Shown here piece by piece: positions 2,414 through 17,674 of a DNA stretch of 25,817 nt. The notes beneath the pieces were generated by a model that searched no databases, had not been told where the DNA came from, and saw only the letters and a list, made by a program, of their open reading frames with translations. Position numbers and translations under genes: made by a program. The stretch comes from a virus. Position 1 is the stretch's first letter, and each line of letters begins with the position of its first letter. Location of the stretch: positions 1 to 25,817 of the IMG/VR virus record IMGVR_UViG_3300030116_005755; one strand, given 5' to 3'.

Positions 2414-3895
2414 CTAACTGACAGAATTTATTCCGTCATTATCAATGTCTACGGTATTAATACTATCGTCTGCTTCTACTGAATTTGGAACAGCCGTACC
2501 TGCATTGACCCGACCTGCAAGCCCAATATCATATACAAGCGTTGGAATAGTTGGCGTTCCACTTACAATATCGCTTGCAGTTAAGACAATATTGATTGTT
2601 GCCGCAGGTGTTCCAATAATCGGATTGCCACTTTCCACAATTACTAACGGCAACTGACCTTCTGGTAATGCAGGGAAGATATTATCTGGAAGTGCAGGTG
2701 TGCCAGATACAACACTAACAGGGACAAGTGTTTCTGCTTCTGACATTGCTATTGAGTCTACAACTGGACTTGCTGCCGCAACGCTTGTAGCTGTTAAGAC
2801 ATGAACTTGTGTTATTGATGTGGTGGCAACATTTGGTGCAACCGATGCAACACTATCCAGAACAAAAGTTTCATCCTCAGCCATGTTGACGCTTGAAACG
2901 ATAGGTGTTCCTGTTGCGATTGCAGATGCAGTCAATGCAGTGTTTTGAGAAACGGATGTTGTGCCTACAGTTGGATTACCAGTTTCAATAGAATTAGCAG
3001 TAAGCGGAATAACTATAGTTAACGTGACGGATGAAACAACAGGATCAGATGCTTCTACACTTGTTGCTGTGATACTGTGTTCTTGTGTTAGTGCAACGGA
3101 AGCAACATTAGCCGCAGACGCTTCAACAGAAGAAGGTGTTATTGATTGTTGTGAAACAAGTGTTGGGCTTCCAACTTGCGGTTCACCTGCATCAAGATCG
3201 GCTGTTGTAAGCGTTTCATACTCAGCCATATTTGCATTATTTGCTACTGGCGTTCCTGATAGGACGCTTGAAGCTGTAAGATCATGTGTGCCAACAATCG
3301 CAACGGATGATACACTAGGACTTCCTGATACAACGCTAGATGCTGTGAGTGTTTCATCCTCTGTCATGCCAATAGACGCAACAACAGGATTACCTGACTC
3401 AACAGAAGAAGCAGTTAATGAGTGTTCAACAGTAAGTGATAATGTTGGAACAGACGGAACACCTGTCGTAAGAGACGGTGTTGTGAATGTTTCATCCTCA
3501 CCCATATTGATTGTAGGCGCACTGAGAGAGCCAGAAACAACACTTTGAGGTGTGAGGTCATGGTTTTGCGTAAACGTAGTAGACGCGGCTTGTGGTGGCG
3601 CACACGCCACATTTGAACAGAGTAGTGCGTGTTCGGATACAATAGATGTATTCGCGACCACAGACGCGCCAGTGAGCAGTGAACTTGCCGTGATAACATT
3701 AATAATTGTTGCTGTGCTTGATTGCACAACAGGAGCACCAGAGACAACTGATGTTGCTGTGAGTGAATGGACTTGCGTAAATGTAACTGACCCAATCGCA
3801 GGTGTTCCCAAGACAATGCTGCTAGGGGTTATTGCAATTTCTCTTACACCATCATCCGCAATCGGTGCTGATGCGACTGGCGCAAATCCAAACAT
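2414..3895 (-). CDS. Tandem 23-residue-repeat structural protein, probable fibre or tail decoration
   Basis: This is a 493-aa protein. After a 21-residue leader beginning MFGFAPVASAPIADDG, residues 22-461 are 19 tandem copies of a 23-residue unit. The consensus is LTASSVxSGxPVVxSxxxxx followed by EDET or xxHS. The units carry no cysteine except in copy 4, are rich in Ser, Thr, Val and Ala, and have one Gly-x-Pro turn per unit, suggesting a beta-solenoid or elongated beta shaft. Copy 17 has two extra residues. The C-terminus (residues 462-493) is Asp/Asn-rich and ends DIDNDGINSVS, a possible calcium site. I recall comparable LTA-x-S-[IV]-x-T/S-G-x-P repeats in uncharacterised alphaproteobacterial and marine phage proteins. 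The length and position suggest an adsorption fibre or spacer. Confidence 0.75.
   Translation of the reverse strand: MFGFAPVASAPIADDGVREIAITPSSIVLGTPAIGSVTFTQVHSLTATSVVSGAPVVQSSTATIINVITASSLLTGASVVANTSIVSEHALLCSNVACAPPQAASTTFTQNHDLTPQSVVSGSLSAPTINMGEDETFTTPSLTTGVPSVPTLSLTVEHSLTASSVESGNPVVASIGMTEDETLTASSVVSGSPSVSSVAIVGTHDLTASSVLSGTPVANNANMAEYETLTTADLDAGEPQVGSPTLVSQQSITPSSVEASAANVASVALTQEHSITATSVEASDPVVSSVTLTIVIPLTANSIETGNPTVGTTSVSQNTALTASAIATGTPIVSSVNMAEDETFVLDSVASVAPNVATTSITQVHVLTATSVAAASPVVDSIAMSEAETLVPVSVVSGTPALPDNIFPALPEGQLPLVIVESGNPIIGTPAATINIVLTASDIVSGTPTIPTLVYDIGLAGRVNAGTAVPNSVEADDSINTVDIDNDGINSVS
2513..3832 (-). repeat. 19 tandem 69-bp (23-codon) protein-coding repeats
   Basis: The repeats occupy residues 22-461 of the gene at 2414-3895. 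The period is 23 codons (69 bases) almost throughout; copy 17 is 25 codons and the last copy 24. The copies have diverged strongly at DNA level but keep the L-T-x-S-V and S/T-G-x-P positions. Ends of units tend to be either an acidic EDET/EYET/EAET type or a xxHS/xxHD type, often alternating between about copies 5 and 9. This hints at an older 46-residue unit. Confidence 0.8.
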
Positions 3896-3899
3896 TTAA

Positions 3900-4208
3900 T
3901 TATGACCTAGCTGCAACCCAATCAGAAACCATTGTTTTGACTTCTGCATTCGTCATATCAGACGTTGTTCCATCGTCATTTGTTTTTTGGTATTTATTTG
4001 CGGTGTGCTGAGCAAGGACTTTTGTTTCTAATTCTGTAGCTGTCAATTCCGTTACAGTATCAGGAATATAATATTCCCGATCCGCTTCGTCAGGTGACCA
4101 ACCGACCATTGTATTTTCTGCTGTATCAAGAAAATAACCACCATCTTCAACCCACTCAGGGGTACGCATACCTCCTGCGGTCATATGCATTTTATATTCT
4201 ATAATCAT
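3900..4208 (-). CDS. Hypothetical fibre-associated protein (EYYIPDT type)
   Basis: This is a 102-aa soluble protein with no TM or signal. It begins MIIEYKMHMTAGGMRTPEWV, contains EDGGYF and DREYYIPDTVTELTATELET, and ends in a helix (DMTNAEVKTMVSDWVAARS). Its ATG overlaps the TGA of the preceding gene (ATGA), so the two are probably translationally coupled. I recall similar short proteins with a Y-[YV]-[IV]-P-D-T core beside tail-fibre genes in marine phages, sometimes annotated as unknown and sometimes as chaperone-like. A fibre-assembly role is a reasonable guess but unproven. Confidence 0.65.
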   Translation of the reverse strand: MIIEYKMHMTAGGMRTPEWVEDGGYFLDTAENTMVGWSPDEADREYYIPDTVTELTATELETKVLAQHTANKYQKTNDDGTTSDMTNAEVKTMVSDWVAARS

Positions 4209-5023
4209 TCTTTTGACTCCTTAGACTTTTCCAGTTGTAACATATAATCTGTATTAAGAAAATCTGCCTTACCAAAAATTCTTTCTGCGGTAATATCTGC
4301 ATTTTTATAATACTTATCTGCCATTTGATCTAAAAAGCTTTCCAGATCATTGCTGTGTAGCAACTCTTTCTTAGCAATCCTTTCAGCCGTAAATTTTATA
4401 TATCCAGAAACTTCTGTCAAAGCTAACTGTGGATGCACTCCGTATTGTTGCATATATTCAATGGTTGCTGTGGAAGCTCTACCACCGTCCATTAAATTCC
4501 GATACATCAGTTCAAAACCTCTACGAACATGATGCCGCTTTTCCTCCCTCTCAAAAGCAAGTTCATCCCATTCATCAATCCCATAATTTTCTTTGATGTT
4601 ATCATAACTATCAATAAGCGTAGCAATATCTTTTATTGAGCCGTTTATTTTATTTTCGATTTGAATAAGATTGTGCCGCTTCTGTCGTAGCTTTGCTTCA
4701 CTCACTGCATCGCTTGAACCTTCTAGTTCAATAATTTCCATGCGTATTTCAGCATGAGTAACCTGCGCTTCATTCAATGCATTTTCTCTTTTTTCTACTT
4801 CCGCAGTAATCTGCCGCAACATTCTATAAGGGGAATGACCGTTGAGCATTGTCAATGTCATCATATTCAATGTTGTCTGTGAATTATTCCGATCAAATGC
4901 CCTAGTAGCTTTTGCAATTTCTGGTAATTTTTCAGCAACCTTTGCAGCCGCAACTTGATTGATATTTTTACTTGCCTCTACTGGCAAAGAAAAAGTTATC
5001 GGTTTTGTTACTACGTTTGTCAA
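4205..5023 (-). CDS. Hypothetical helical/coiled-coil protein with TTG start
   Basis: This 272-aa protein is almost entirely predicted helical. A long charged coiled-coil region spans about residues 75-150 (AEVEKRENALNEAQVTHAEI; LRQKRHNLIQIENKINGSIK) and further helices run to the end. It has no TM and no beta signature. The start is TTG at 5023-5021, chosen because a perfect AGGAGGT lies five bases upstream, overlapping the TAG of the last propeller gene; no in-frame ATG is near. It sits between the six propeller genes and the 23-residue-repeat gene, in a region otherwise made of beta-rich fibre proteins. A fibre chaperone or connector is conceivable, but I recognise no family. Confidence 0.65.
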   Translation of the reverse strand: MTNVVTKPITFSLPVEASKNINQVAAAKVAEKLPEIAKATRAFDRNNSQTTLNMMTLTMLNGHSPYRMLRQITAEVEKRENALNEAQVTHAEIRMEIIELEGSSDAVSEAKLRQKRHNLIQIENKINGSIKDIATLIDSYDNIKENYGIDEWDELAFEREEKRHHVRRGFELMYRNLMDGGRASTATIEYMQQYGVHPQLALTEVSGYIKFTAERIAKKELLHSNDLESFLDQMADKYYKNADITAERIFGKADFLNTDYMLQLEKSKESKE

Positions 5024-5033
5024 ACTTGACCTC

Positions 5034-6149
5034 CTATGATGGACTTCCTGAGCAACCGCCCATATAATTATTACTTTGTGTTAGATCTGCAAAATCACTT
5101 GCGTCTCCTGTTGTTTGTATTGTGAAACGCTGAATTGTATTTTTAATTGTAGAACTCTGTAGACCTCCGTTTATTGTTCCATAAGTTTTATTAGACGTAC
5201 AAGCATGCACTCTTCTAGTTGCCGCCAAGTCACCGAAATCTGTTGCATTACCTGTTGTTCCCAAAGTGACATAATCCATTGTATTCACTGACAAAGACCC
5301 TGATGTTCTGCCACCACACCAAACACCTCTAGTTGCATCACCACAAGCATCAAATTCTTCTCTTGCTGATGTGAGGTCACCAAAATCCGATGCATTCCCT
5401 GCGCTTGCGCTTGCAAAATAATCAATCACATTTGAGTAACCACCGCGATCACCCCCACCGACATGAACATAAGTAGCTCCATAGACTGCACCAGTGTAGT
5501 CAGCGTTTGTTGTAAGGTCTCCGAAATCAGTTGCATTTCCAAGAGTAGCTATTGTAACTCTCCCGATTTGACCAGTTGAAGATGTAGTAATTCCCTGACC
5601 ACCTATATGAAACCCATATGTCCCATCACTGGCACAAGAAATTTTAATTGCGGCATGTAAAGAATCACCAAAATCTGCTGCGTTTCCAAGCGTAGAAATG
5701 GTAATATAATCTATTGTCTGCGTATCTGTTCCACTTCCATAGTATCCGTTAAAAATAAGTCCGCGACTTGTGCTTGAACATGCTGCACATAATGTTTTTC
5801 CTGTTGTCAAATCACCAAAATCTGCTGCGTTACCTGCGGTGGTTATATCGTAATAATCAATAATAGCTAATGGATTACTTGATGAGTCTCTTCCCCCTGC
5901 GATGATAGCTCTATCACCACCCCAACTAAAAGCAGATTCCAAAGAAATAGTTTTAAACTCACTATTTATATATTGATAAAGAACATTGTTAGAACTATCC
6001 CACCAGAAATCTCCCTCACTTGGCGATGATGGTTCTGTGCCGCTTGCTGTATATCCCTGCTCAATTGCGTTGCCTCTAACTTTAAGCTTGTTAGGAAAGT
6101 CAACCGCTGAACCTTTATTGCCAATTGTGTTTACTTTTAACGTACTCAT
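5034..6149 (-). CDS. Six-bladed kelch-like propeller fibre protein, copy 6 (N-terminal type III)
   Basis: A 371-aa protein. Residues 1-30 (MSTLKVNTIGNKGSAVDFPN, then KLKVRGNAIE) are an N-terminal domain shared only with the next copy upstream at 6159-7244. A second module follows (SGTEPSSPSEGDFWWDSSNN..INSEFKTIS), common on phage fibre proteins. From about residue 77 there are six blades of about 48-50 residues, each ending in [ND]A[ATS]DF[GA]DL or a close variant; the last reads DASDFADL. The protein ends SGCSGSPS-type, completing the first half-blade and suggesting closure of a circular six-bladed propeller. It probably binds a host-surface target or decorates the tail; no enzyme motif is seen. 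The TAG stop is part of the Shine-Dalgarno of the next gene. Confidence 0.75.
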   Translation of the reverse strand: MSTLKVNTIGNKGSAVDFPNKLKVRGNAIEQGYTASGTEPSSPSEGDFWWDSSNNVLYQYINSEFKTISLESAFSWGGDRAIIAGGRDSSSNPLAIIDYYDITTAGNAADFGDLTTGKTLCAACSSTSRGLIFNGYYGSGTDTQTIDYITISTLGNAADFGDSLHAAIKISCASDGTYGFHIGGQGITTSSTGQIGRVTIATLGNATDFGDLTTNADYTGAVYGATYVHVGGGDRGGYSNVIDYFASASAGNASDFGDLTSAREEFDACGDATRGVWCGGRTSGSLSVNTMDYVTLGTTGNATDFGDLAATRRVHACTSNKTYGTINGGLQSSTIKNTIQRFTIQTTGDASDFADLTQSNNYMGGCSGSPS

Positions 6150-6158
6150 TTTTCTCTC

Positions 6159-7244
6159 CTAAGAAGCACTGCCTGATGTCATACCACCCAATCTTCGGGC
6201 ATTACCTGATTTGTTTAAGTCTCCGTGATCTGTGGCATTGCCTGTTGTAGCTATCGTAATTCTATCTATGGTATTTAATCCACCATAATAATCATAACCA
6301 CCTGCAAAAACTCCGTATGTATTATCGCTTGTTGCTGCGAGTTGGTATCTACTTACTGTAAGGTCTCCAAAATCTGTAGAGTTTCCAGTTGTTTGAATAG
6401 TTATATAATCAATAGTATTGATCATCATTCCACCACCTGTTACACCTCTTGTATCTCCTGAGGTAGCAGCAGCATAAACTCTATTTGAAACGCCATCACC
6501 AAAATCTGTAGCATCGCCTGTTGTAGCTATAGTAACATAATCCATCGTCAGATTATAAGCAGTTGCAGCAAAAACGCCTCGGGTAGCATCATTCATGCCA
6601 CCTTCCATCTGGTATCTTCCAAGCGTCAAATCGCCAAAATCCGTACCATTTCCTGATGTTTGACCACCCAAAGTAATATATTCAATTTTATTTGTTACAC
6701 TACCAGTATACCCACCTGCAAAAAGCCCACGATCACCATTAGAAAGTGACATATGATCTCTTGTTGCGGCAGTCATGTCTCCAAAATCTGCGGCATCGGC
6801 TGTCGTGGCTATGGTTACAAAATCAATCGTATTTACATGAGTGCTTGTATATCCACCTGCGAAAACTCCATAAGTTGTATCGGAAACTGCTCCTGCGGTT
6901 CTTCTTGAACTAGTCAAATCGCCAAAATCAGACGCATTACCTGTCGAAGTAATATCAAAATAATCTATAATATTTGATGATCCAAAACCTCCAGCATGTA
7001 ATGCTCTTGCACCGTACCATGTTGAAGGTGGAGCAAAAGAAATAGTTTTAAACTCTGAATTAATGTAATGCTTTAGAACACCGTTTCCTGTGTCGTACCA
7101 AAAATCACCGTTTGAAGGTGAACTAGGCTCTGTGCCTGAGGAAGTATAAGTTCGTTCAATTGCATTTCCGCGAATAGTCAATTTATTTGGAAAATCAACT
7201 GCACCGCCTTCATTGTCAAATGTATTTACTTTTATTGTACTCAT
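6159..7244 (-). CDS. Six-bladed kelch-like propeller fibre protein, copy 5 (N-terminal type III)
   Basis: A 361-aa paralog, the shortest of the six. Its N-terminus MSTIKVNTFDNEGGAVDFPN matches the type III domain of copy 6. The linker module is SGTEPSSPSNGDFWYDTGNG followed by YINSEFKTIS. Six blades follow, with phrases such as TYGVFAGGY, NTIDFVTIATT and GNSTDFGDL; the last is altered to GNATDHGDL. The protein ends MTSGSAS. Its ATG overlaps the TGA of copy 4 (ATGA), the only junction in the array made this way. As with the other copies, a receptor-binding or decoration role is inferred from location and fold, not from a known characterised homolog. Confidence 0.75.
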   Translation of the reverse strand: MSTIKVNTFDNEGGAVDFPNKLTIRGNAIERTYTSSGTEPSSPSNGDFWYDTGNGVLKHYINSEFKTISFAPPSTWYGARALHAGGFGSSNIIDYFDITSTGNASDFGDLTSSRRTAGAVSDTTYGVFAGGYTSTHVNTIDFVTIATTADAADFGDMTAATRDHMSLSNGDRGLFAGGYTGSVTNKIEYITLGGQTSGNGTDFGDLTLGRYQMEGGMNDATRGVFAATAYNLTMDYVTIATTGDATDFGDGVSNRVYAAATSGDTRGVTGGGMMINTIDYITIQTTGNSTDFGDLTVSRYQLAATSDNTYGVFAGGYDYYGGLNTIDRITIATTGNATDHGDLNKSGNARRLGGMTSGSAS

Positions 7245-8365
7245 GAAGCTGCTCCTGACATACTTGCCATAGCGTAAGTTGAAGCTAATAAATCACCAAA
7301 GTCAGAAGCATTTCCTGTCGTTGCTATCGTGACTGATTGCAAACTATCACTTGTCGTACCTCCACCAAAAATAGCAGTAGTCGCGTTATTAACCGCTGAC
7401 AATATATGCTGACCGCTTACTAAATCTCCAAAATCTGTGGAATTTCCAGTTGTGTCGGTAGTGATATATTCTATTTGATTTAAAATGCTGCTTGAATTTC
7501 TACCGCCCCCAAACAATCCTCTGGTATCGCCACCTGCACCTGCCATATTCTTTTTCGAACCTAATAAATCACCGAAGTCAGTTGCATTACCTGTTGTCTG
7601 AATAACAACATAATCCATGACATTGTTATAAGCTGTGGAACCTTGACCACCTGCGGTAACTCCCCTTGTGCCATTACTTAATGCTGCAATATTTCTTCTG
7701 GAAACCGTTAAGTCTCCAAAATCTGTAGAATTAGAAGGAGATGCTATTGTGATATATTCAATGTTATTTGAATAATAAGTTCCATCAACACGTTCACCGC
7801 CAAAGTGCAAACCGCGTGTAGCATCAGCCGCAGCCGCCCCTGATTCCATACCAGTTGTTAAATCACCGAAATCGGTTGCGTTTCCAGTTGTTGCGATGGT
7901 GATATATGATATTTCTTCTCTGTCTTGAACTTCATCATTACCTGCAAAAATAATTCCATAAGTTGCATCAGAACAACCTGCCGCACCATAAAAGGAAGCT
8001 AATAAATCTCCAAAGTCGGTGGCATTTCCCGAAGAAGTTATATCAATATATTGAATAACATTTTGTTTTCCAAGAATGCTATTATTGTAACCACCTGCAA
8101 AAACACCTCTATCCCCATACCAAACAGTAGAAGGGTTGACATGAGTAAGCTGCTTAAATTCTCCATTGATATAAGTGTAATATTTGTCATTTGCCGTATC
8201 AAACCAAACATCACCATTTGCAGGAGAACTTGGTTCAGTTCCGCTTGCCGTGTATGCAAAACCTAAAAGACCGCTATCCGAACCACCGCTATTTAATCCA
8301 TACGTGAAATTAGGTGCGCCAGTACCTGCGCTGTCTGTTATCTTTTCAACTTCTACATCACTCAT
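7241..8365 (-). CDS. Six-bladed kelch-like propeller fibre protein, copy 4 (N-terminal type II)
   Basis: A 374-aa paralog. The N-terminus MSDVEVEKITDSAGTGAPNF, with GLNSGGSDSGLLGFAY, is shared with copy 3, including the AGTGxPNF motif that type I copies also have. The module SGTEPSSPANGDVWFDTAND then YINGEFKQLTH precedes the propeller. There are six blades ending NATDFGDL, NATDFGDL, NSTDFGDL, NATDFGDL, NSTDFGDL and NASDFGDL, the most regular set in the array. The protein ends MASMSGAAS. The stop is TGA overlapping the next ATG, rather than TAG. The fold call rests on repeat number and phase. Confidence 0.75.
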   Translation of the reverse strand: MSDVEVEKITDSAGTGAPNFTYGLNSGGSDSGLLGFAYTASGTEPSSPANGDVWFDTANDKYYTYINGEFKQLTHVNPSTVWYGDRGVFAGGYNNSILGKQNVIQYIDITSSGNATDFGDLLASFYGAAGCSDATYGIIFAGNDEVQDREEISYITIATTGNATDFGDLTTGMESGAAAADATRGLHFGGERVDGTYYSNNIEYITIASPSNSTDFGDLTVSRRNIAALSNGTRGVTAGGQGSTAYNNVMDYVVIQTTGNATDFGDLLGSKKNMAGAGGDTRGLFGGGRNSSSILNQIEYITTDTTGNSTDFGDLVSGQHILSAVNNATTAIFGGGTTSDSLQSVTIATTGNASDFGDLLASTYAMASMSGAAS

Positions 8366-8374
8366 TTTATTTTC

Positions 8375-9535
8375 CTAAGAAGGTGAACCAGAACACCCAC
8401 CTGCACCGTCAATTGTTGCCGTATTGTCTCCAAAATCTGTAGCATTACCTGTTGTCTGGATCGTTACGTAATCCATTGTATTTGTATAAGGTGATGCACC
8501 ACCGCTATTAAAGACAGCGTATGTAGCGTCAGCCACAGCGGCTGTTTGTCGCCCTTCTGTAAGGTCACCAAAATCTGTGGCATTTCCTGTCGTTTGGATT
8601 GTTATATAGTCTATTACGTTCTGATAAGAGAATGAAGCACCGCTACCACCTCCCATAACACCGCGAGTTGCGTCTGAAACAGCTCCACCTATATAAAAAC
8701 CCACTGTCATATCGCCAAAGTCCACTGCATCTCCTGCGGAAGCGTATGTTATATATTGTATCGTTTCATCATTTGCAGAATAATAATTATAGCCACCGCA
8801 TATAATACCCCTTGTTAAATCACCGTAAGCACCACCCAGTCGATTGCCTCTGATTAAGTCTCCTCCAAAGTCAGTGGCGTTGCCTGTCGTTGCAATCGTA
8901 ATTTTATCTATATCAGTTTTGTATCTGGCTTCACCACTACCAGATCCGAAACCCATCGCAAATATTCCTAAAGTGCCGTTAGAACATGCTACCGTATCTG
9001 ATTTTGATTGTGTTAAATCTCCAAAATCTGTAGCGTTTCCTGCTGAACTGATTGTGACGTAATCCATTACATTTTGGTATGAGGTGCTTGTATTAACGCT
9101 GCCGCCTCCCCATACGCCTCTAGTTTGATTACTTAGTCCTGATGTAAATTCTCTTGTGACGCTCAAATCACCAAAATCAGTGGCGTCTCCTGTTGTAGTT
9201 ATATCTATCTGATTTATTGTATTTAATGAAGATCCATTATTTGCGGTTTCACCGCCAGCGAATAATCCTCTAGTTCCACTCCAAGCATTTTGAGCCGCAG
9301 CCGCATTTTCATGCGTTATCTGTTTAAACGCACCTGCTACATAATAATATAATTTATCATTTGTGCTATCATACCAAAGATCACCGTTTGCAGGGGAAGA
9401 TGGTTCTGTTCCTGATGAAGTGTATGCCTTGCCGATTAAACCGCTATCAGAACCGCCAGAATTAAGACCGTATGTAAAACTTGGTGCGCCTGTCCCTGCA
9501 CTATCCGTAATTTTTCTTGTTTGAAATTCTGACAT
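8375..9535 (-). CDS. Six-bladed kelch-like propeller fibre protein, copy 3 (N-terminal type II)
   Basis: At 386 aa this is the longest paralog. The N-terminus MSEFQTRKITDSAGTGAPSF, with GLNSGGSDSGLIGKAY, is type II, as in copy 4. After the SGTEPSSPANGDLWYDSTND module there is an extra Ala-rich linker (HENAAAAQNAWSGTRGLFAG) before blade 1. Six blades follow; blade 3 has a one-residue insertion in the signature (NATDFGGDL) and blade 4 reads DAVDFGDM. It ends GCSGSPS. The start ATG follows TAGGAGAATACA, in which the TAG is the stop of copy 2. Confidence 0.75.
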   Translation of the reverse strand: MSEFQTRKITDSAGTGAPSFTYGLNSGGSDSGLIGKAYTSSGTEPSSPANGDLWYDSTNDKLYYYVAGAFKQITHENAAAAQNAWSGTRGLFAGGETANNGSSLNTINQIDITTTGDATDFGDLSVTREFTSGLSNQTRGVWGGGSVNTSTSYQNVMDYVTISSAGNATDFGDLTQSKSDTVACSNGTLGIFAMGFGSGSGEARYKTDIDKITIATTGNATDFGGDLIRGNRLGGAYGDLTRGIICGGYNYYSANDETIQYITYASAGDAVDFGDMTVGFYIGGAVSDATRGVMGGGSGASFSYQNVIDYITIQTTGNATDFGDLTEGRQTAAVADATYAVFNSGGASPYTNTMDYVTIQTTGNATDFGDNTATIDGAGGCSGSPS

Positions 9536-9544
9536 TGTATTCTC

Positions 9545-10678
9545 CTAAGATGGTGACCCTGACCCTGCCATAACTGCCATTGAAGTACCTGCTAAATCGC
9601 CAAAATCACTGGCATTTCCTGTTGTACTAAAAGCCCAATAACTTATAGTATTTACTTCACCTGAGCCGCTTATTCGACCACCCATAGCAACACCTCTGCT
9701 ATAGTTAGAAGTCGCATCAAAATAATCAGGCGAATATGATAGATCACCAAAATCCGCAGCATTACCAGTTGTTTGTATAGTAACATATGACATTGTGTTT
9801 AAGAAAGTATTTGAATTGTAAGACTTACCGCCCATCACTACAAACTTTCCATCCCCACTTGCTGCCGCACAAAATGTATGCATCACACTATCATCACCAA
9901 AATCTGTAGCGTTGCTCGGAGTTGCCATTGTCGTGTATTCTATTGTTTGGTTGACAGAAGTTTTATTACTAGCCCCATGCTCCATTTTGTGGACTGCCCT
10001 TGTTGCATCACCTGCGGATGTTGTTCCTTCTGGACTGACAGTACAATCACCAAAAGCTGAAGCATTGCCTGTTGTGGCTATTGTAACATAATCTATTTTG
10101 CCGTAATTATTTACAAAATTACCACCATGAATAAGCATATATGTTCCATCTGCCACCGCAGAGTTATCCCGACCTGCTTGAATTGTATCGCCAAAATCTG
10201 TGCAATTGCCCAAAGTTGAGGGCGTGACATATTCAAGGGTATTCGTATACGAACCCAACCCTAATTTAAAAATAGTCCTATTATTCGCACCTGCGGCAGT
10301 CCCTTGAGCCGTTGCAGAAGTAGTATCCCCAAAGTCGCTAGCATTTCCTGTTGTTGTAATATCAAAGTAATCAATAGTATTTGAGCTTGAACCGCCTCTT
10401 TCCCCTGCGTGAACCAAGGCTCTGTCTCCATACCATGTGGTAGGAGCGATCCCGATTGTTTCTCTCCACTCACCTGCAATATAAATAAATATCTTTTCGT
10501 TTGTTGTATCCCACCAAATAGAACCATTCTGAGGAGAACTTGGTTCACTAGAACTTGCGTTATATTCACCAACATTTAGCGTAGAAACTGCCGCGCCATT
10601 CATTGTAACCCCATTGGAAAAATTGGGTTTCCCTGTCCCTGCCGCATCTACAATTGTATCAACTTTTATTTCTGGCAT
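9545..10678 (-). CDS. Six-bladed kelch-like propeller fibre protein, copy 2 (N-terminal type I)
   Basis: A 377-aa paralog. The N-terminus MPEIKVDTIVDAAGTGKPNF, with NGVTMNGAAVSTLNVGEYNA, is type I, shared with copy 1. The module SSSEPSSPQNGSIWWDTTNE then YIAGEWRETIGIA links it to the propeller. The six blades are the most diverged of the array: their signatures include NASDFGDT, NCTDFGDT, NASAFGDC and NATDFGDD. It ends MAGSGSPS. Faster change here than in its type I partner may reflect altered binding specificity, but that is inference. Confidence 0.75.
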   Translation of the reverse strand: MPEIKVDTIVDAAGTGKPNFSNGVTMNGAAVSTLNVGEYNASSSEPSSPQNGSIWWDTTNEKIFIYIAGEWRETIGIAPTTWYGDRALVHAGERGGSSSNTIDYFDITTTGNASDFGDTTSATAQGTAAGANNRTIFKLGLGSYTNTLEYVTPSTLGNCTDFGDTIQAGRDNSAVADGTYMLIHGGNFVNNYGKIDYVTIATTGNASAFGDCTVSPEGTTSAGDATRAVHKMEHGASNKTSVNQTIEYTTMATPSNATDFGDDSVMHTFCAAASGDGKFVVMGGKSYNSNTFLNTMSYVTIQTTGNAADFGDLSYSPDYFDATSNYSRGVAMGGRISGSGEVNTISYWAFSTTGNASDFGDLAGTSMAVMAGSGSPS

Positions 10679-10687
10679 TTTTTTCTC

Positions 10688-11818
10688 CTAAGACGCACTA
10701 CCCGAACAAGCACCTGACTCACTGAAATTTGCCACATAATCCCCGAAGTCTGTTGCATTTCCTAAAGTTTGAACTGTTATATAATCCATGACATTATTAT
10801 CACCAGTGCTTGAATTATAGCCATGTGAAAAAACGCCATAAGTAGTATTACTCATTCCGCTTAAAGTTCTTGCGACTGTAAGATCACCGAAATCTGTTGC
10901 GTTGCCTGTTGTCTGAGTTGTAAAATATTGCATGACATTTGTTATAGCACTATTTCCTCTACCACCTGCTACGACACCTCTTGTTGCGTCTGATACACTT
11001 CCAAGCTCATATGCGCCTACTGTAAGGTCACCGAAATCAGTTGTATTCCCAGTTGTTGCATAGGTAATATATTCAGTCGTAACAGCCGATTGAGAAGTAT
11101 AACCACCTGCAATTACGCCTCTAGTTGCATCAGCAAAAGAAGTACCGCCATATAGGCCAGTAGTTACGTCTCCGAAGTCTGTTGCATTGCCAGTAGTTGC
11201 AGGAATAATTTTATCAATTTCATTTGAGTTACTACCACTGTAACCACCTGCAACAATTCCAATTGTGCCATTACAACTTGCCGCATCTGTCCAAGCCTTT
11301 GAGCTTTGCAAATCTCCAAAATCTGTCGCGTTTCCAGCTGTGCTTATAGTAACATAATCAATAATGTTTTTTAGATTACTTAGACTGCTTAGATAACCTC
11401 CAAACCATAAACCCCTTGTTGCATTACTTAATGAACCTATTGATTGTCTTGCTTCTGTAAGATCGCCAAAGTCTGTTGCGTTGCCAGTACTAAGAATAGT
11501 GATATAAGAAATTACGTTAGAGGAAGAACCACCAGTACGACCACCGCCCATTACACCTCTATCACCACCCCAAGTAATACCTCCTGCAATACCGATGGTC
11601 TCTTTCCACTCACCCTCTGCATAGATAAATGTTTTTTCGTTTGCAGTATCCCACCACAAAGCACCATTGCTAGGACTGCTTGGCTCTGATGAACTTTCAG
11701 TATATTCATTAAGGTTAAGAGTAGACGTAGCTGCACTATTGACCGTAATACCATTTTCAAAGTTTGGCTTACCCGTACCTGCCAGATTTACAACTGTATC
11801 TACTTTTAATTCTGTCAT
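10688..11818 (-). CDS. Six-bladed kelch-like propeller fibre protein, copy 1 (N-terminal type I)
   Basis: A 376-aa paralog and the first of the array in transcription order. The N-terminus MTELKVDTVVNLAGTGKPNF, with NGITVNSAATSTLNLNEYTE, is type I. The module SSSEPSSPSNGALWWDTANE then YAEGEWKETIGIA is followed by six blades. A clear consensus is visible: TRGVxAGGY, then NxIDYITIxTT, then GNATDFGDLT. The end is GACSGSAS. Its ATG shares one base with the TAA of the cupredoxin-domain fibre gene (TAATG), so the array is coupled to the main fibre operon. Confidence 0.75.
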   Translation of the reverse strand: MTELKVDTVVNLAGTGKPNFENGITVNSAATSTLNLNEYTESSSEPSSPSNGALWWDTANEKTFIYAEGEWKETIGIAGGITWGGDRGVMGGGRTGGSSSNVISYITILSTGNATDFGDLTEARQSIGSLSNATRGLWFGGYLSSLSNLKNIIDYVTISTAGNATDFGDLQSSKAWTDAASCNGTIGIVAGGYSGSNSNEIDKIIPATTGNATDFGDVTTGLYGGTSFADATRGVIAGGYTSQSAVTTEYITYATTGNTTDFGDLTVGAYELGSVSDATRGVVAGGRGNSAITNVMQYFTTQTTGNATDFGDLTVARTLSGMSNTTYGVFSHGYNSSTGDNNVMDYITVQTLGNATDFGDYVANFSESGACSGSAS

Positions 11819-12924
11819 TAGATTACTGCGTATCTCGCCCCTGATGAAATTGTAATTGTTACACCACTTGCAACGGTCAATGGACCAACCGAGAAAGCGT
11901 TATCTGTTGCTGCGACTGTTACATCCGAGCTGAGTGTCTTTGTGTGACTATTTACAGCACTCAAACCTCCTGATTGATCGGCAAAGCTTAACTGACCCGA
12001 CCCATCAGTTTGCAAAACTTGTGAGGCACTGCCATCTGCCGTAGGAAAAGATAAACCATCTAAAATAATTTTTCCTGTTCCATTTGGTGTAATTGCAATG
12101 TTTCCATTTGATGCTGAGACAATACCGTTGCCGTTCACATCAAGGTCACCACCCAATTGCGGAGTCGTATCAGCCGCTACACTTGCAATCCCACCTGATC
12201 CGCTTTGATCATCTACCCAAGCATAATCACTACCGTTGTAACTTAATATTTGTCCTGAAGATGCACTGCTTAAATTGAGATGTGTATTTACATCACTATC
12301 GGTATAACCTGCATTGCTAACCCATGCATAATCAGAACCATTATAGCTAAGAACTTGACCACTTGATGCGGAACTAAAATTTAAATGAGAGTCTACATCA
12401 CTGTTTCCATAACTTGCCGCAGGTGTGCCGAATGAGATGGTTCCTGATCCGTCCGTCTGTAAAACTTGTGAAGCACTTCCGTCAGACGTTGGGAATGTAA
12501 AAGCACTAGCAAAACTTGCAAAATTTGCATCACCAATCGGTGCAGTTTTAACAAGACCGCCCATGCCGCTATGGTTCGTACAATAGTAATATAAATGATC
12601 TGCCGCGTCTTGCTCTAACGTAACTTCAACATAAGCACCTGACGAACCTGCCGTTCCAACTGTTGTAATCCCTGTCGTAAAGGCTGATCCACCTCCATGC
12701 GTGCCGTTTGATGTTGTGGAAAACGCTAACGGATGTCCACTGTTGCTACTATCAGAATTGTCGAAGCGATAAGTTATACCTTTGGAAAGCGAAACAGTTT
12801 GTTGTTGCGTACCATCCATGTAATATTTGCCACCTGCAACCGTAACCGTTATCGTGGCAACTGCCGCCTTACCAGAAGAATTAATACTAGGCGCAAAGCT
12901 TGCTAAATTTCTGTTTATACTCAT
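11818..12924 (-). CDS. Tail fibre protein with N-terminal cupredoxin-like domain
   Basis: A 368-aa protein. Residues about 24-128 look like a cupredoxin: beta-rich, with GGKYYMDGTQQQTVSLSKGI and TYRFDNSD, then NSGHPLAF (H64) and LYYYCTNHSGMGG (C115, H118, M121). His, Cys, His and Met are the four ligands of type 1 copper sites, and C-x2-H-x2-M is the spacing I remember for amicyanin. The rest is fibre-like: repeated SASQVLQTDGSGxxSF motifs, two copies of SSASSGQ[VI]LSYNGSDYAWV, and the C-terminal GPLTVASGVTITISSGARYAV, an ending typical of phage fibre proteins. Similar domains occur in cyanophage and marine phage structural proteins as I recall. Copper binding is possible but not shown; the fold may serve only as a beta scaffold. 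Confidence 0.75.
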   Translation of the reverse strand: MSINRNLASFAPSINSSGKAAVATITVTVAGGKYYMDGTQQQTVSLSKGITYRFDNSDSSNSGHPLAFSTTSNGTHGGGSAFTTGITTVGTAGSSGAYVEVTLEQDAADHLYYYCTNHSGMGGLVKTAPIGDANFASFASAFTFPTSDGSASQVLQTDGSGTISFGTPAASYGNSDVDSHLNFSSASSGQVLSYNGSDYAWVSNAGYTDSDVNTHLNLSSASSGQILSYNGSDYAWVDDQSGSGGIASVAADTTPQLGGDLDVNGNGIVSASNGNIAITPNGTGKIILDGLSFPTADGSASQVLQTDGSGQLSFADQSGGLSAVNSHTKTLSSDVTVAATDNAFSVGPLTVASGVTITISSGARYAVI

Positions 12925-12933
12925 GACTTTTTC

Positions 12934-13647
12934 CTAAATCGCGTATTGTTGCACTTGTAAGATGTCGCCAGTACTTGCGCCAGAAACTAACGTCACTACG
13001 CTAGTTGATATTGAATAGTCTGTAGTTGGCAGTAATAAAATCCCATTAAGATAAACCGCACTTTTATTTATATTGTAACTGCCAGAGAATGCAGTCTGAC
13101 CGCTTGTTGCGGTAAATTCTGTTGTGGAATAATTTGCAGATGCACCGCCATATTCGACAACCTCTACTATATCACCAGTTGAAGCTCCAGAACCAAGCAC
13201 AACGGCAGTCCCACTTGTCGCTGTAAATGAGCTTGCATCTAATTTTGCGCCATTCATAAACACCAAGATATTGCCTACTGTGTAGTTCACACTGAATGAG
13301 GTTTGTCCTGATGTCGCTGTGAATGCTGTAAAATTATGCGCTGCTCCTGATAAAGTTAGATCAGCCGCACTTGGGCTAATAAATACATAAGCAGAACCAC
13401 TTAAATTGAGTAATGATCCTGTTGAACTACTACTGAGCGTTCTTGTTAGTGTCGTTCCGCTATGCGTGTATGTACCTTGACCTATCTCCCAAGCGGTACC
13501 ATCCTCAATAACGTAACGGACGGTATCCCCATTGGAAATACCGCCATCAGCAAATGTTTGGTAGCCACTCTGAGCAGACCCAAGACTAACTGTTCCTGTT
13601 CCTGTTGTTGAAGTAGCTACCTTGACCCGATCTGCAAATTTTACCAT
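12934..13647 (-). CDS. Tail fibre protein with two C-terminal T7-fibre-like beta repeats
   Basis: A 237-aa protein. Residues 1-100 ([20 protein letters not shown], then [19 protein letters not shown]) form an N-terminal domain common to many phage fibre and minor structural proteins. Residues 106-167 and 177-237 are two copies of one domain. Each starts FTATSGQT[SA]FS, has a VFMNGAKLD or VYLNGILL turn, and ends GASTGDI[VL][EQ]V. This small beta domain is found on many phage fibres. The start ATG lies two bases after the TAA of a 43-aa gene. A structural adsorption role is likely; the binding partner is unknown. Confidence 0.7.
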
Positions 13648-14614: not shown

Positions 14615-17600
14615 TTAACCTGACAATACTAAAACTGCGATAGTGCCTTGTGAACCACCGCCACCGCTATCATTCCCTCGTAACTGTATCGAAAAACCTA
14701 CCGACCCACTGGTGGAGGTTGTCGTACCAGTCATGACCATCGGTTGAAATTCTCTTAGTGGGTTTATTGTGATACTACCCTCTTTTGCTTTCAAATCTCT
14801 ATAAGACGTATTAGCTAAAGTTACGTTGGAAGAAGTGGGGGTTACTCTTAAATAAGGACTTTCAACATTATTCGCGTGACCACCAATCTGTCCAACAACA
14901 ATTACGTCTGCACCTACTTTTACGCCAGAAAACGAAACAGTGACAGATGCTGCCGTACCGTTTCTAGTAAGCGAGTTACTAAACACCGTAGTGTTAGCCT
15001 GACCGAGTGCAGGAAAACGATCTACGTCAAGCGTACCTGCGGTAATTTTCGCAGCATCCAAACTTCCAATTTTTGCACTTGTAACCGCTAAATCTTGAAT
15101 TTTTGCTGCGGTAATCACTGCATCATTAATTTGTGCTGCTGAAGTTATTATTCCTGATGATGCAATGAGACCGCCTGTTATTTGATTAGCTGCTATCTTA
15201 TTTGTGGTGATAGCACCTGCCGCTATTTCATTTGCACCAATCGCATTGGCTGATATTTTTGCAGCCGTGATTGCGTCATCAGCAATTTTAGCTGTATCAA
15301 TTGTGCCATCAGGTATTTGACTTGCTGCAATAGAACCTGACAATTCGGAAAAGCTACTTGCGCCACCTGCGGCTGTATTCCAAGTTGACCCATCCCAAGC
15401 ATAAAGCTGATCATTTGTTGTAAGATATACATTTTGACCAACAAAATCACCGCTTGTTGGCAATGAGGAAACAGGTTCAATCATATCTAAACCTGCATCA
15501 ATAAATATTTGTCTTATGCCATTTTCAAAATCTGGATCATCTAAATATGTAGTTGTTGCAGATACTCCTGTTGTAAACGCTGATGCATTGCCCGAAAAGT
15601 CAACTGCCTTTAAGAAATAGTATCTTGTTTGATTTAAATTTAAGCCTGTCCGTGTAAAAGTTGAACCACCCGAAACACCGACCTTAGTTGCACCGCTTGA
15701 GGTATTTGTGGTATTTTCATAAATTTCTACAAAATTCAAATCTGCATCTGCAGGGTTTGTCCAGTTTATTGTTATAAATTTAAAACCGCCAGTTGCAGAG
15801 ATAGATGTGGGTAGACTTGGTGCAGTGGTATCGCCACCGCCAGTAAAGGTTGTTGTTGCAAATGGTCCTTTATTTCCTTGTACAGTAACAGCTCTCACTC
15901 TTATTTGATATTCTACACCATCAACAAGTGGTGTTAATTCAATACTTGTTTCGGGAGTGATTGTAGATTGATAACTGCTATCTGCCGTTGCTTTGTGTTC
16001 TACCTCATAATGAGAAATAAAAGAATTATTAGGCGCAGTCCAAGAAACTATTACGCTATTGATAAAAGTTCCATCAGCTTGTGTTCTGCCACCGCCACCA
16101 GTTGTTAAACTAGAGATTGTTAAATTATCAGTAAGACTTGGCAAATTACTGTCATTTGATTTTAAATCTGCTTCTTCCGCATTCCAACTAAAAGCAGCCG
16201 AAGAAGTTTCCCTAAGTGTCAATCCTACGGAAAGCTCTCCACTATCTCTACTCGCTTCAAGCCTCCAACCGATTACTTCAAAATCTTTCGCGCTGAACCC
16301 ATACCGCGAGTTTGTTATTTCGATAATATCTCCGACCTGCACCTCTAAAGCTTTCAAGCTAAATTTTGCGCTTAAAGTCATCGACTCCCTTGCTCTGAAC
16401 AAAGTCATTTTTGCAATTCGTTGTGCAGCAATCGCAGAAGTTGTGAAAGGCAGAGGAAAGTCTAAAACATTTTCTACACCGCTATCGTCACTTATAAACG
16501 TAGAACTCCGCACTTCGGGATAGTCAGCTCTGCGCCAATCATCTTCTGCATTATTGAACATTCCACGGACAATATTAAAATTATCTCTCCTACTTGGCTT
16601 AGTTTCCAAAGTTACTTCGCTACGGAAATCATCTAGCGTAAAACTTTTTACTGGCGTTGAGTATGCACCCACTACAAGCTGCCACTGCCCTTGTCCCCAA
16701 AACAGCGTTCCTGCACAAGAGGCTACCATATCTGCAAGAATATCCTGTGGCGATCTATCTAGAGATAATACGCCATTTATTTCATACCGTTTCTCTGTGC
16801 CGCTATCGCTTAAAGTGACGTCCTCATCGCAGGTGTTTGCAGCCGCAGAAAAAACAGTATCATTCGTATCACCGCCATTGTTTAAACCATACTTTGAGGT
16901 CAAATAGTCCCTTATACACAATGCTGCATTTGCAGAAAATGCTGTCGAACCGCTTCTTGGGTCAGTGACCTTTTTTCCCTGCACAACTGCCGTAAATAAG
17001 GGTACACCTTGTGTAAAAACATCTTGGTTGTATTTAAGGCGAACATACAAACAAGCTATGCCTTGACCCCGAAAGTTTGTGTCGTCTCCGCTTTGACCAT
17101 TAGCCCAATCAGGTGTATTTCCGTCGGTCAAACTATTCAAAGTAGTATAGACATTTTGTGTTGGCGAACCCTCAAACTTTTTAATTAAAATAGTCGAATT
17201 GCCATCACCATCTTGCCAAAGAGAAGTTGTAACATTTCCATCTGAGTCTAATGCTACCTCTTTATCATTAATATAAATCGTTCCGATATTATTTACTTCA
17301 TGACCTGCTAATGTAATTATTTGGTGCAAGTACTCATTGTTAGTACCAGTTGACTCTAGGTAAGTTACAACCCCACCTTTACGCACAGTTCCATAGACAA
17401 CTTCTTGTGCAGCATTCGGTGATCTTGTGTTTGTGAATAATCCGCGACTTGAACCAAAAGCACTGCTATCGAAATCTGGCATCATCGCTTTAAATGCCCA
17501 GTTTACTACCACACCGATAGCTATGCCGCCAATAATAGGTATTAAAATCGCAGGTATGACTGACGTAAGACCTAAAGCACTAACTATTGCAGTACCCACA

Positions 17601-17674
17601 ATAGTCGGATGCCTTGGCACATTATCCCAATCATTCCAATGTTTTACTGTTAAATCACCTAACTTATACTTCAT
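14615..17674 (-). CDS. Tail tip attachment protein J-like, with two fibronectin III domains
   Basis: A 1019-aa protein. Residues 24-61 are strongly hydrophobic (IVGTAIVSALGLTSVIPAIL and on), like the separate gpI protein of lambda, here fused at the N-terminus. Residues about 85-500 are the J/phage tail protein 3-type hub, with NAAQEVVYGTVRKGG and RYEINGVLSLDRSPQDILAD. FN3-like domains lie at about 512-612 and 618-708. A small module (residues 736-770, DGSTWN) follows. Residues 780-887 are low-complexity I-x-x-x-A-I-T-x-x-K-I repeats (DDAITAAKISANAIGANEIA), typical of trimeric fibre shafts. A beta-rich end follows. It overlaps the peptidase gene by 11 bases. The role is central tail fibre and receptor contact, forming the tip below the hub. 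Confidence 0.85.
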   Translation of the reverse strand: MKYKLGDLTVKHWNDWDNVPRHPTIVGTAIVSALGLTSVIPAILIPIIGGIAIGVVVNWAFKAMMPDFDSSAFGSSRGLFTNTRSPNAAQEVVYGTVRKGGVVTYLESTGTNNEYLHQIITLAGHEVNNIGTIYINDKEVALDSDGNVTTSLWQDGDGNSTILIKKFEGSPTQNVYTTLNSLTDGNTPDWANGQSGDDTNFRGQGIACLYVRLKYNQDVFTQGVPLFTAVVQGKKVTDPRSGSTAFSANAALCIRDYLTSKYGLNNGGDTNDTVFSAAANTCDEDVTLSDSGTEKRYEINGVLSLDRSPQDILADMVASCAGTLFWGQGQWQLVVGAYSTPVKSFTLDDFRSEVTLETKPSRRDNFNIVRGMFNNAEDDWRRADYPEVRSSTFISDDSGVENVLDFPLPFTTSAIAAQRIAKMTLFRARESMTLSAKFSLKALEVQVGDIIEITNSRYGFSAKDFEVIGWRLEASRDSGELSVGLTLRETSSAAFSWNAEEADLKSNDSNLPSLTDNLTISSLTTGGGGRTQADGTFINSVIVSWTAPNNSFISHYEVEHKATADSSYQSTITPETSIELTPLVDGVEYQIRVRAVTVQGNKGPFATTTFTGGGDTTAPSLPTSISATGGFKFITINWTNPADADLNFVEIYENTTNTSSGATKVGVSGGSTFTRTGLNLNQTRYYFLKAVDFSGNASAFTTGVSATTTYLDDPDFENGIRQIFIDAGLDMIEPVSSLPTSGDFVGQNVYLTTNDQLYAWDGSTWNTAAGGASSFSELSGSIAASQIPDGTIDTAKIADDAITAAKISANAIGANEIAAGAITTNKIAANQITGGLIASSGIITSAAQINDAVITAAKIQDLAVTSAKIGSLDAAKITAGTLDVDRFPALGQANTTVFSNSLTRNGTAASVTVSFSGVKVGADVIVVGQIGGHANNVESPYLRVTPTSSNVTLANTSYRDLKAKEGSITINPLREFQPMVMTGTTTSTSGSVGFSIQLRGNDSGGGGSQGTIAVLVLSG

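Follow-up and report, generated by a model that had tools for sequence, protein, structure and literature searches.

The nearest system with which we compared the present locus is the tailspike cluster TSP1-TSP4 of the Ackermannviridae (the CBA120-type branched complex), in which several receptor-binding proteins are encoded in tandem, with conserved, position-specific N-termini and diverse C-terminal receptor modules (PMC8432352, PMC11414711). A given receptor module can be joined there to more than one TSP type, at a breakpoint motif common to them (PMC8432352). The modules are beta-helical tailspikes of four types, and the XD1-XD3 hinge domains form a branched baseplate complex.

Kelch propellers have also been encountered in phages. 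CBB_552, a kelch protein of the giant phage CBB, was found in the virion by mass spectrometry, and other giant-phage kelch proteins belong to BcepSaruman and to PhiPA3/Noxifer; the accessible part of the CBB report describes neither a tandem anchor-class array nor propeller exchange (PMC5259590). In Synechococcus phage S-SKS1, the repeat unit YGYFGGG..NTIDRIDFSNET..NNLPQAR..LAAVSS has a layout like that of the unit described here, but it carries another signature motif, shows 31% identity, and no three-class anchors were seen. The eukaryotic kelch domains of KEAP1 and KLHL12 have the same six-bladed fold, glycine doublet and ring closure, whereas their identity to the propellers described below is 12-14% and their context is different.

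The DNA analyzed here (the window) is a stretch of 25,817 nucleotides forming part of a 49.9-kb linear virus record. It contains six tandem genes which share with the Ackermannviridae cluster conserved anchors, diverse C-termini with a putative receptor-binding role, and the presence of one C-terminal module on different anchors. It differs from this cluster in having kelch propellers and no beta-helix, anchors of about 75 residues in three classes, arrays of 1-7 genes and a dedicated helical companion in siphovirus-like metagenomic phages. The array appears to work like the Ackermannviridae tailspike cluster, but since fold, anchor classes, array sizes and companion all differ, it is not a member of it. 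No description of such an array was found in the literature searched, which covered few subscription papers.

Gene organization of the array

The first-pass annotation had reported six adjacent genes, each with six GNATDFGDL-type units. Both statements held: six intact head-to-tail open reading frames of 361-386 aa occupy positions 5034-11818 of the minus strand, and each contains six GNATDFGD-type units, 36 in total, spaced by 44-52 residues (the second unit of P5 reads ADAADFGD). A degenerate DNA pattern for this motif gave 18 matches on the coding strand, none on the other strand and none in a reversed control. The P4 and P5 genes overlap by 4 nt and the remaining spacers are short. Inside the array, neither a promoter scan (28 matches, 27.7 expected by chance) nor a terminator scan (8 versus 6.0) showed an excess. 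The coordinates are collected in Table 1.

Table 1. Positions in the window of the array genes and their neighbours.
Feature	Position	Strand	Basis
1019-aa central tail fibre (J-like)	14615..17674	-	phrog_5616 E 6e-85; phrog_31 'central tail fiber J' E 1e-75
237-aa tail-fibre-like gene	12934..13647	-	phrog_2710 E 2.5e-9
368-aa tail-fibre-like gene, directly 5' of array	11818..12924	-	phrog_677 'baseplate wedge tail fiber protein connector' E 3e-19
P1, class A1	10688..11818; anchor 11594-11818, propeller 10691-11593	-	ORF, six units, anchor profile
P2, class A2	9545..10678; anchor 10454-10678, propeller 9548-10453	-	ORF, six units, anchor profile
P3, class B1	8375..9535; anchor 9311-9535, propeller 8378-9310	-	ORF, six units, anchor profile
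P4, class B2	7241..8365; anchor 8141-8365, propeller 7244-8140	-	AlphaFold and Foldseek, propeller match
P5, class C1	6159..7244; anchor 7020-7244, propeller 6162-7019	-	propeller match, nucleotide comparison
P6, class C2	5034..6149; anchor 5925-6149, propeller 5037-5924	-	ORF, six units, anchor profile
272-aa all-helical companion, directly 3' of array	4205..5023	-	linkage counts, helical model

The window encodes an HK97-type head and a siphovirus-like tail module comprising capsid, tape measure, distal tail protein and the J-like central fibre, followed by the 237-aa and 368-aa tail-fibre-like proteins. The array lies downstream of the fibre genes, on the same strand, and is followed by the 272-aa gene and smaller late genes. 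The 237-aa protein is 87-99% identical in the closest relatives compared. Within its connector-family match, the 368-aa protein contains a cupredoxin-like stretch (Pfam Copper-bind, E 0.013, below the cut-off).

Two further observations concern the neighbourhood. A 493-aa protein encoded at 2414-3895 is built from a short degenerate repeat (LTASSVxSGxPxV); its identity is 91% in relative L012, 73% in L014 and about 30-38% in more distant arrays. In L009 (9586-13845; record G000, about 34585-38844), a cluster resembling DNA base hypermodification was seen, with a Tet/JBP oxygenase (Pfam E 8.9e-21), a ParB-N protein, a DAO-type FAD oxidoreductase, a P-loop kinase-like protein and a 262-aa protein to which no assignment was given.

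Propeller fold

An AlphaFold model of P4, built with 86 relatives, had a pLDDT of 91, with values of 95-99 across most of the propeller; residues 1-37 of the anchor were poorly modelled (50-67). The model contains six times four strands, 24 in all, and the conserved C-terminus (..SGSxS) is the last strand of blade 1, which closes the ring. When this model was compared with the PDB by Foldseek, the top matches were six-bladed kelch domains (E 1e-16 to 1e-18), among them KLHL12 (6v7o, E 9e-18) and KEAP1 (1zgk, E 6e-17), both with a target TM of about 0.87, and the designed SAKe6 proteins. The closed six-bladed propeller that had been proposed from the repeat count is thus borne out for P4; the same fold is predicted for P1-P3, P5 and P6 from full-length identities of 38-48%. 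Furthermore, the blade number is constant, as had been argued: in the middle 90% of 146 non-redundant relatives the propeller is 284-328 aa long.

The kelch glycine doublet at the end of strand B is present at columns 29-30 of the repeat alignment (G 0.75 and G 0.88 in 923 repeats). Sequence searches of Pfam and the PDB do not reveal the family: none of the six array proteins reached a Pfam gathering cut-off (best match Kelch_1, E 0.18), none of the 86 family members matched any Pfam kelch model at E 0.001, and the A4 profile found no match among PDB sequences.

In eukaryotic viruses, kelch domains serve as intracellular adaptors (poxvirus matches were obtained in BFVD), and the array proteins could be imagined as non-virion proteins that act in or outside the cell, for instance in host takeover or as decoys. 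The Pfam search revealed no fused effector domain in any of the six. The position of the genes among late structural genes, the tail-fibre-like nature of the N-terminal module and the three-class anchors all speak against this explanation, which we hold to be very unlikely. Gene position and a weak similarity of the anchors to phage structural families suggest a location in the virion.

Anchor classes and array sizes

Each protein consists of an N-terminal anchor of about 75 residues and a C-terminal six-bladed propeller. The anchors sort into three classes, A, B and C, which class profiles separate clearly (typical scores of 130 versus 70 in the window group), and their order in the window is A-A-B-B-C-C. 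The first-pass annotation, right on the genes, the blades and the mixed set, had overlooked these classes, as well as the exchange of propellers, the 272-aa companion and the kelch identity.

Array size, for which variation between relatives had been raised as a question, does vary between phages. Among 100 arrays on unique contigs, bounded on both sides, sizes ran from 1 to 7 genes with a mode of 3: 54 held three genes, 21 a single one, and the others from 2 to 7. All three classes were present in 45 of the 50 bounded arrays with A/B/C anchors, exactly as A-B-C in 27, while the arrays of the window group read A-A-B-B-C-C. Array families with unrelated N-termini also form triplets of three different N-terminal types, for instance fibronectin-like, 'MPSYSGVWTL' and 'WPGGIIRKT'.

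A second array family (L045, L052, L062, L066, L076, L077 and similar loci) consists of triplets with three other N-terminal types in fixed order, and has a distant homologue (20-25%) of the 272-aa companion. In arrays with unrelated N-termini (L045, L063, L071, L080, L084, L088, L095 and L103), proteins of about 610-930 aa with at least 10 repeat units were observed; each of these chains is probably a fusion of at least two propellers.

Apart from the related repeats of S-SKS1, all arrays come from metagenome-derived contigs. Searches by tblastn with P4, P1 and a P4 fragment gave no match among the catalogued phages (50,697 records), with low-complexity filtering that may hide weak repeats. 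A capsid query used as a control matched 473 of these records, so the absence of the array is real at that sensitivity. S-SKS1 was the only genome of this collection found to have related repeats; its kelch-like repeat proteins, annotated as hypothetical, lie at the record end (L099, 204948-207940), and 22 places in the genome match. A scan of 85,462 species genomes yielded 9 loci, mostly on MAG contigs that may be misbinned virus, and thus names no host.

Exchange of propellers between anchors

In order to compare anchors and propellers by position, five six-gene phages were examined. Same-slot anchors were 93% identical (median), against 43% for same-slot propellers, a value hardly different from the 42% found between propellers of different classes. 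For the anchors, same-slot minus other-slot identity was 0.431, which was reached in none of 2000 slot permutations; for the propellers it was -0.003, reached in 1107 of 2000. Slot memory is strong in the anchors and there is none in the propellers. The six proteins are indeed a mixed set and not copies, as had been supposed, propeller pairs within one of these genomes never exceeding 54% identity.

Comparison of the window with its close relatives L011/L012 gave the same picture: the flanking genes show 97-100% identity and the anchors 88-96%, while same-slot propellers are seemingly unrelated. The missing propellers are partly found elsewhere. That of P4, on a B2 anchor, is 95% identical to the propeller of L011 gene 3, which has a B1 anchor and lies one slot earlier; that of P5, on a C1 anchor, is 90% identical to L011 gene 4, on a B2 anchor, again one slot earlier. 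L131 gene 2 and L134 gene 1 provide a further propeller common to different anchors. Nucleotide identity shifts at codons ~70-80, where the breakpoints lie, and is high again across the last ~30 nt. Rapid drift as the sole source of diversity was rejected: it would leave same-slot propellers more alike, which they are not, and it cannot place one propeller on different anchors. In the moved genes, pS was 0.16-0.30 for the propeller and 0.79-0.81, near saturation, for the anchor, and this low propeller value beside a nearly saturated anchor indicates exchange, not fast drift.

Propellers that match at high identity mostly have anchors of one class (in 9 of 10 pairs of the close group), which makes the class-specific anchor DNA the probable homology arm. 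Most gene ends carry TC[T/A]TAGGAG, where stop codon and following Shine-Dalgarno sequence overlap, and an incoming propeller therefore supplies a working ribosome site.

Since anchor sequences hardly differ between strains, and since repeat proteins are a known cause of broken assemblies (PMC9238414), the shuffling might be an artefact in which short-read assemblers joined co-occurring strains through anchor DNA. No second copy of the window's own arrangement was present among the compared records; other arrays do, however, recur at 99.9-100% identity across IMG/VR records (L011/L012, L039/L130, L117/L118, L029/L144). Cross-class moves join anchors only about 40% identical in protein, which leaves no shared k-mer for an assembler to cross, and the moved copies, at the pS given above, do not represent one population. 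An artefact of this kind is highly improbable.

The localisation of variability in the tail module would also suit programmed diversification inside one genome, either through a diversity-generating retroelement or through an invertase shufflon. The six genes all point the same way, however, the differences extend over whole propellers and are not confined to single codons, and the 49.9-kb record, which is linear and may be a fragment, contains no reverse transcriptase (PF00078), resolvase/invertase (PF00239) or tyrosine integrase (PF00589). Programmed diversity is scarcely credible here, and exchange between phages is the reading retained.

Loop variability and selection

Across the 923 repeats, conservation covers the motif and strands C and D, and variability is concentrated (2.8-3.9 bits) at columns 11-16, the DA loop formed by the six columns after the motif, and at columns 31-37, the BC loop formed by the seven columns after the glycine doublet. 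In the KEAP1 and KLHL12 structures, the ligand face is made up of the BC and DA loops. For these loops, dN/dS was 0.35 in nine pairs of propellers shared recently, versus 0.11 in the scaffold. These ratios indicate that the propellers are functional proteins under purifying selection, with loops that are relaxed or diversifying. Since kelch propellers elsewhere bind mostly proteins, the target of the array propellers may not be a surface glycan.

It could also be proposed that the propellers are general low-affinity adhesins on the capsid or tail shaft, binding for example mucus-like or surface polysaccharides, and not specific receptor binders. Such a role is in line with the structural kelch proteins of giant phages, namely CBB_552 in the virion (PMC5259590) and the BFVD matches, which include a 'virion structural protein' of PhiPA3, Noxifer and Phabio. 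However, the array genes are placed after the tail fibre genes and not in the head module, and position-specific anchor classes together with loop-restricted diversity exceed the needs of passive decoration. This role thus seems unlikely, and specific recognition at the tail is preferred.

The 272-aa companion gene

For 87 arrays, 1 kb or more of sequence was available downstream; in 70 of these a homologue of the 272-aa gene followed the array, mostly at no more than 70 nt. None of 98 fetched loci devoid of kelch genes had such a homologue. Conversely, in all 71 loci for which the sequence reached far enough, a kelch gene lay at most 1.5 kb upstream of the homologue; among them were phages with a single propeller and phages whose anchors are of other types. 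The protein is 58-99% identical among 31 aligned homologues, against about 40% for the propellers. Its structure model is all-helical with moderate confidence (pLDDT 72), and a Foldseek search with this model returned nothing significant (best E 0.37). Neither the protein nor two distant homologues matched any catalogued phage.

As the gene tracks the propeller and not one anchor type, its likeliest role, judged from gene linkage, is that of a propeller-specific candidate chaperone or adaptor. Chaperones linked to shared tail fibres are described in Alteromonas phages (PMC10579305). Kelch genes with a 272-aa-like homologue (about 28-29%) were also seen in L108 and L105, on contigs that binning had assigned to a Thermoprotei archaeon and to a Nomurabacteria genome; these are possibly misbinned viruses or possibly very distant hosts.

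Discussion

We consider it probable that the array is a tail-associated multi-receptor module in which fixed anchors carry swapped kelch receptor-binding heads. The anchor of each class keeps its place in the gene order, while the propeller is exchanged between phages and, less often, between classes. The anchors would fit every propeller to its own site on the tail tip, and the three classes may correspond to three types of docking site within one heteromeric assembly. The variable BC/DA-loop face would bind host surface molecules, giving up to six binding specificities per virion. Swapping would proceed by homologous recombination through the conserved anchors and gene ends and so renew the set, perhaps aided by the phage's own ERF single-strand-annealing protein, which is encoded by the window's own record (Pfam E 5.9e-19). 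The 272-aa helical protein, which accompanies the propeller genes whatever the anchor or array size, may help to fold or attach them.

A more detailed model can be put forward tentatively. The tail tip of these uncultured, probably marine phages might carry three obligate kinds of kelch protein (A, B and C) in a heteromeric head, with propellers recombined from a large shared pool and a dedicated helical protein that folds or mounts the subunits. If this is true, the doubling A-A-B-B-C-C would give either two alternative heads per particle or a head with six specificities.

The combination of fixed anchors and swapped heads in multi-receptor phages is known chiefly from enterobacterial tailspikes. 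The array suggests that this logic recurs on a fold unrelated to theirs, in phages that the catalogued collection almost entirely lacks and that are distinguished by a regular code of three anchor classes and by the strict linkage of a companion gene. The 272-aa gene is a testable candidate for a propeller-specific assembly factor. The arrays would also offer a simple sequence signature for the host-recognition modules of uncultured phages, and a natural library of monomeric binding domains that are compact (~300 aa) and share a constant scaffold.
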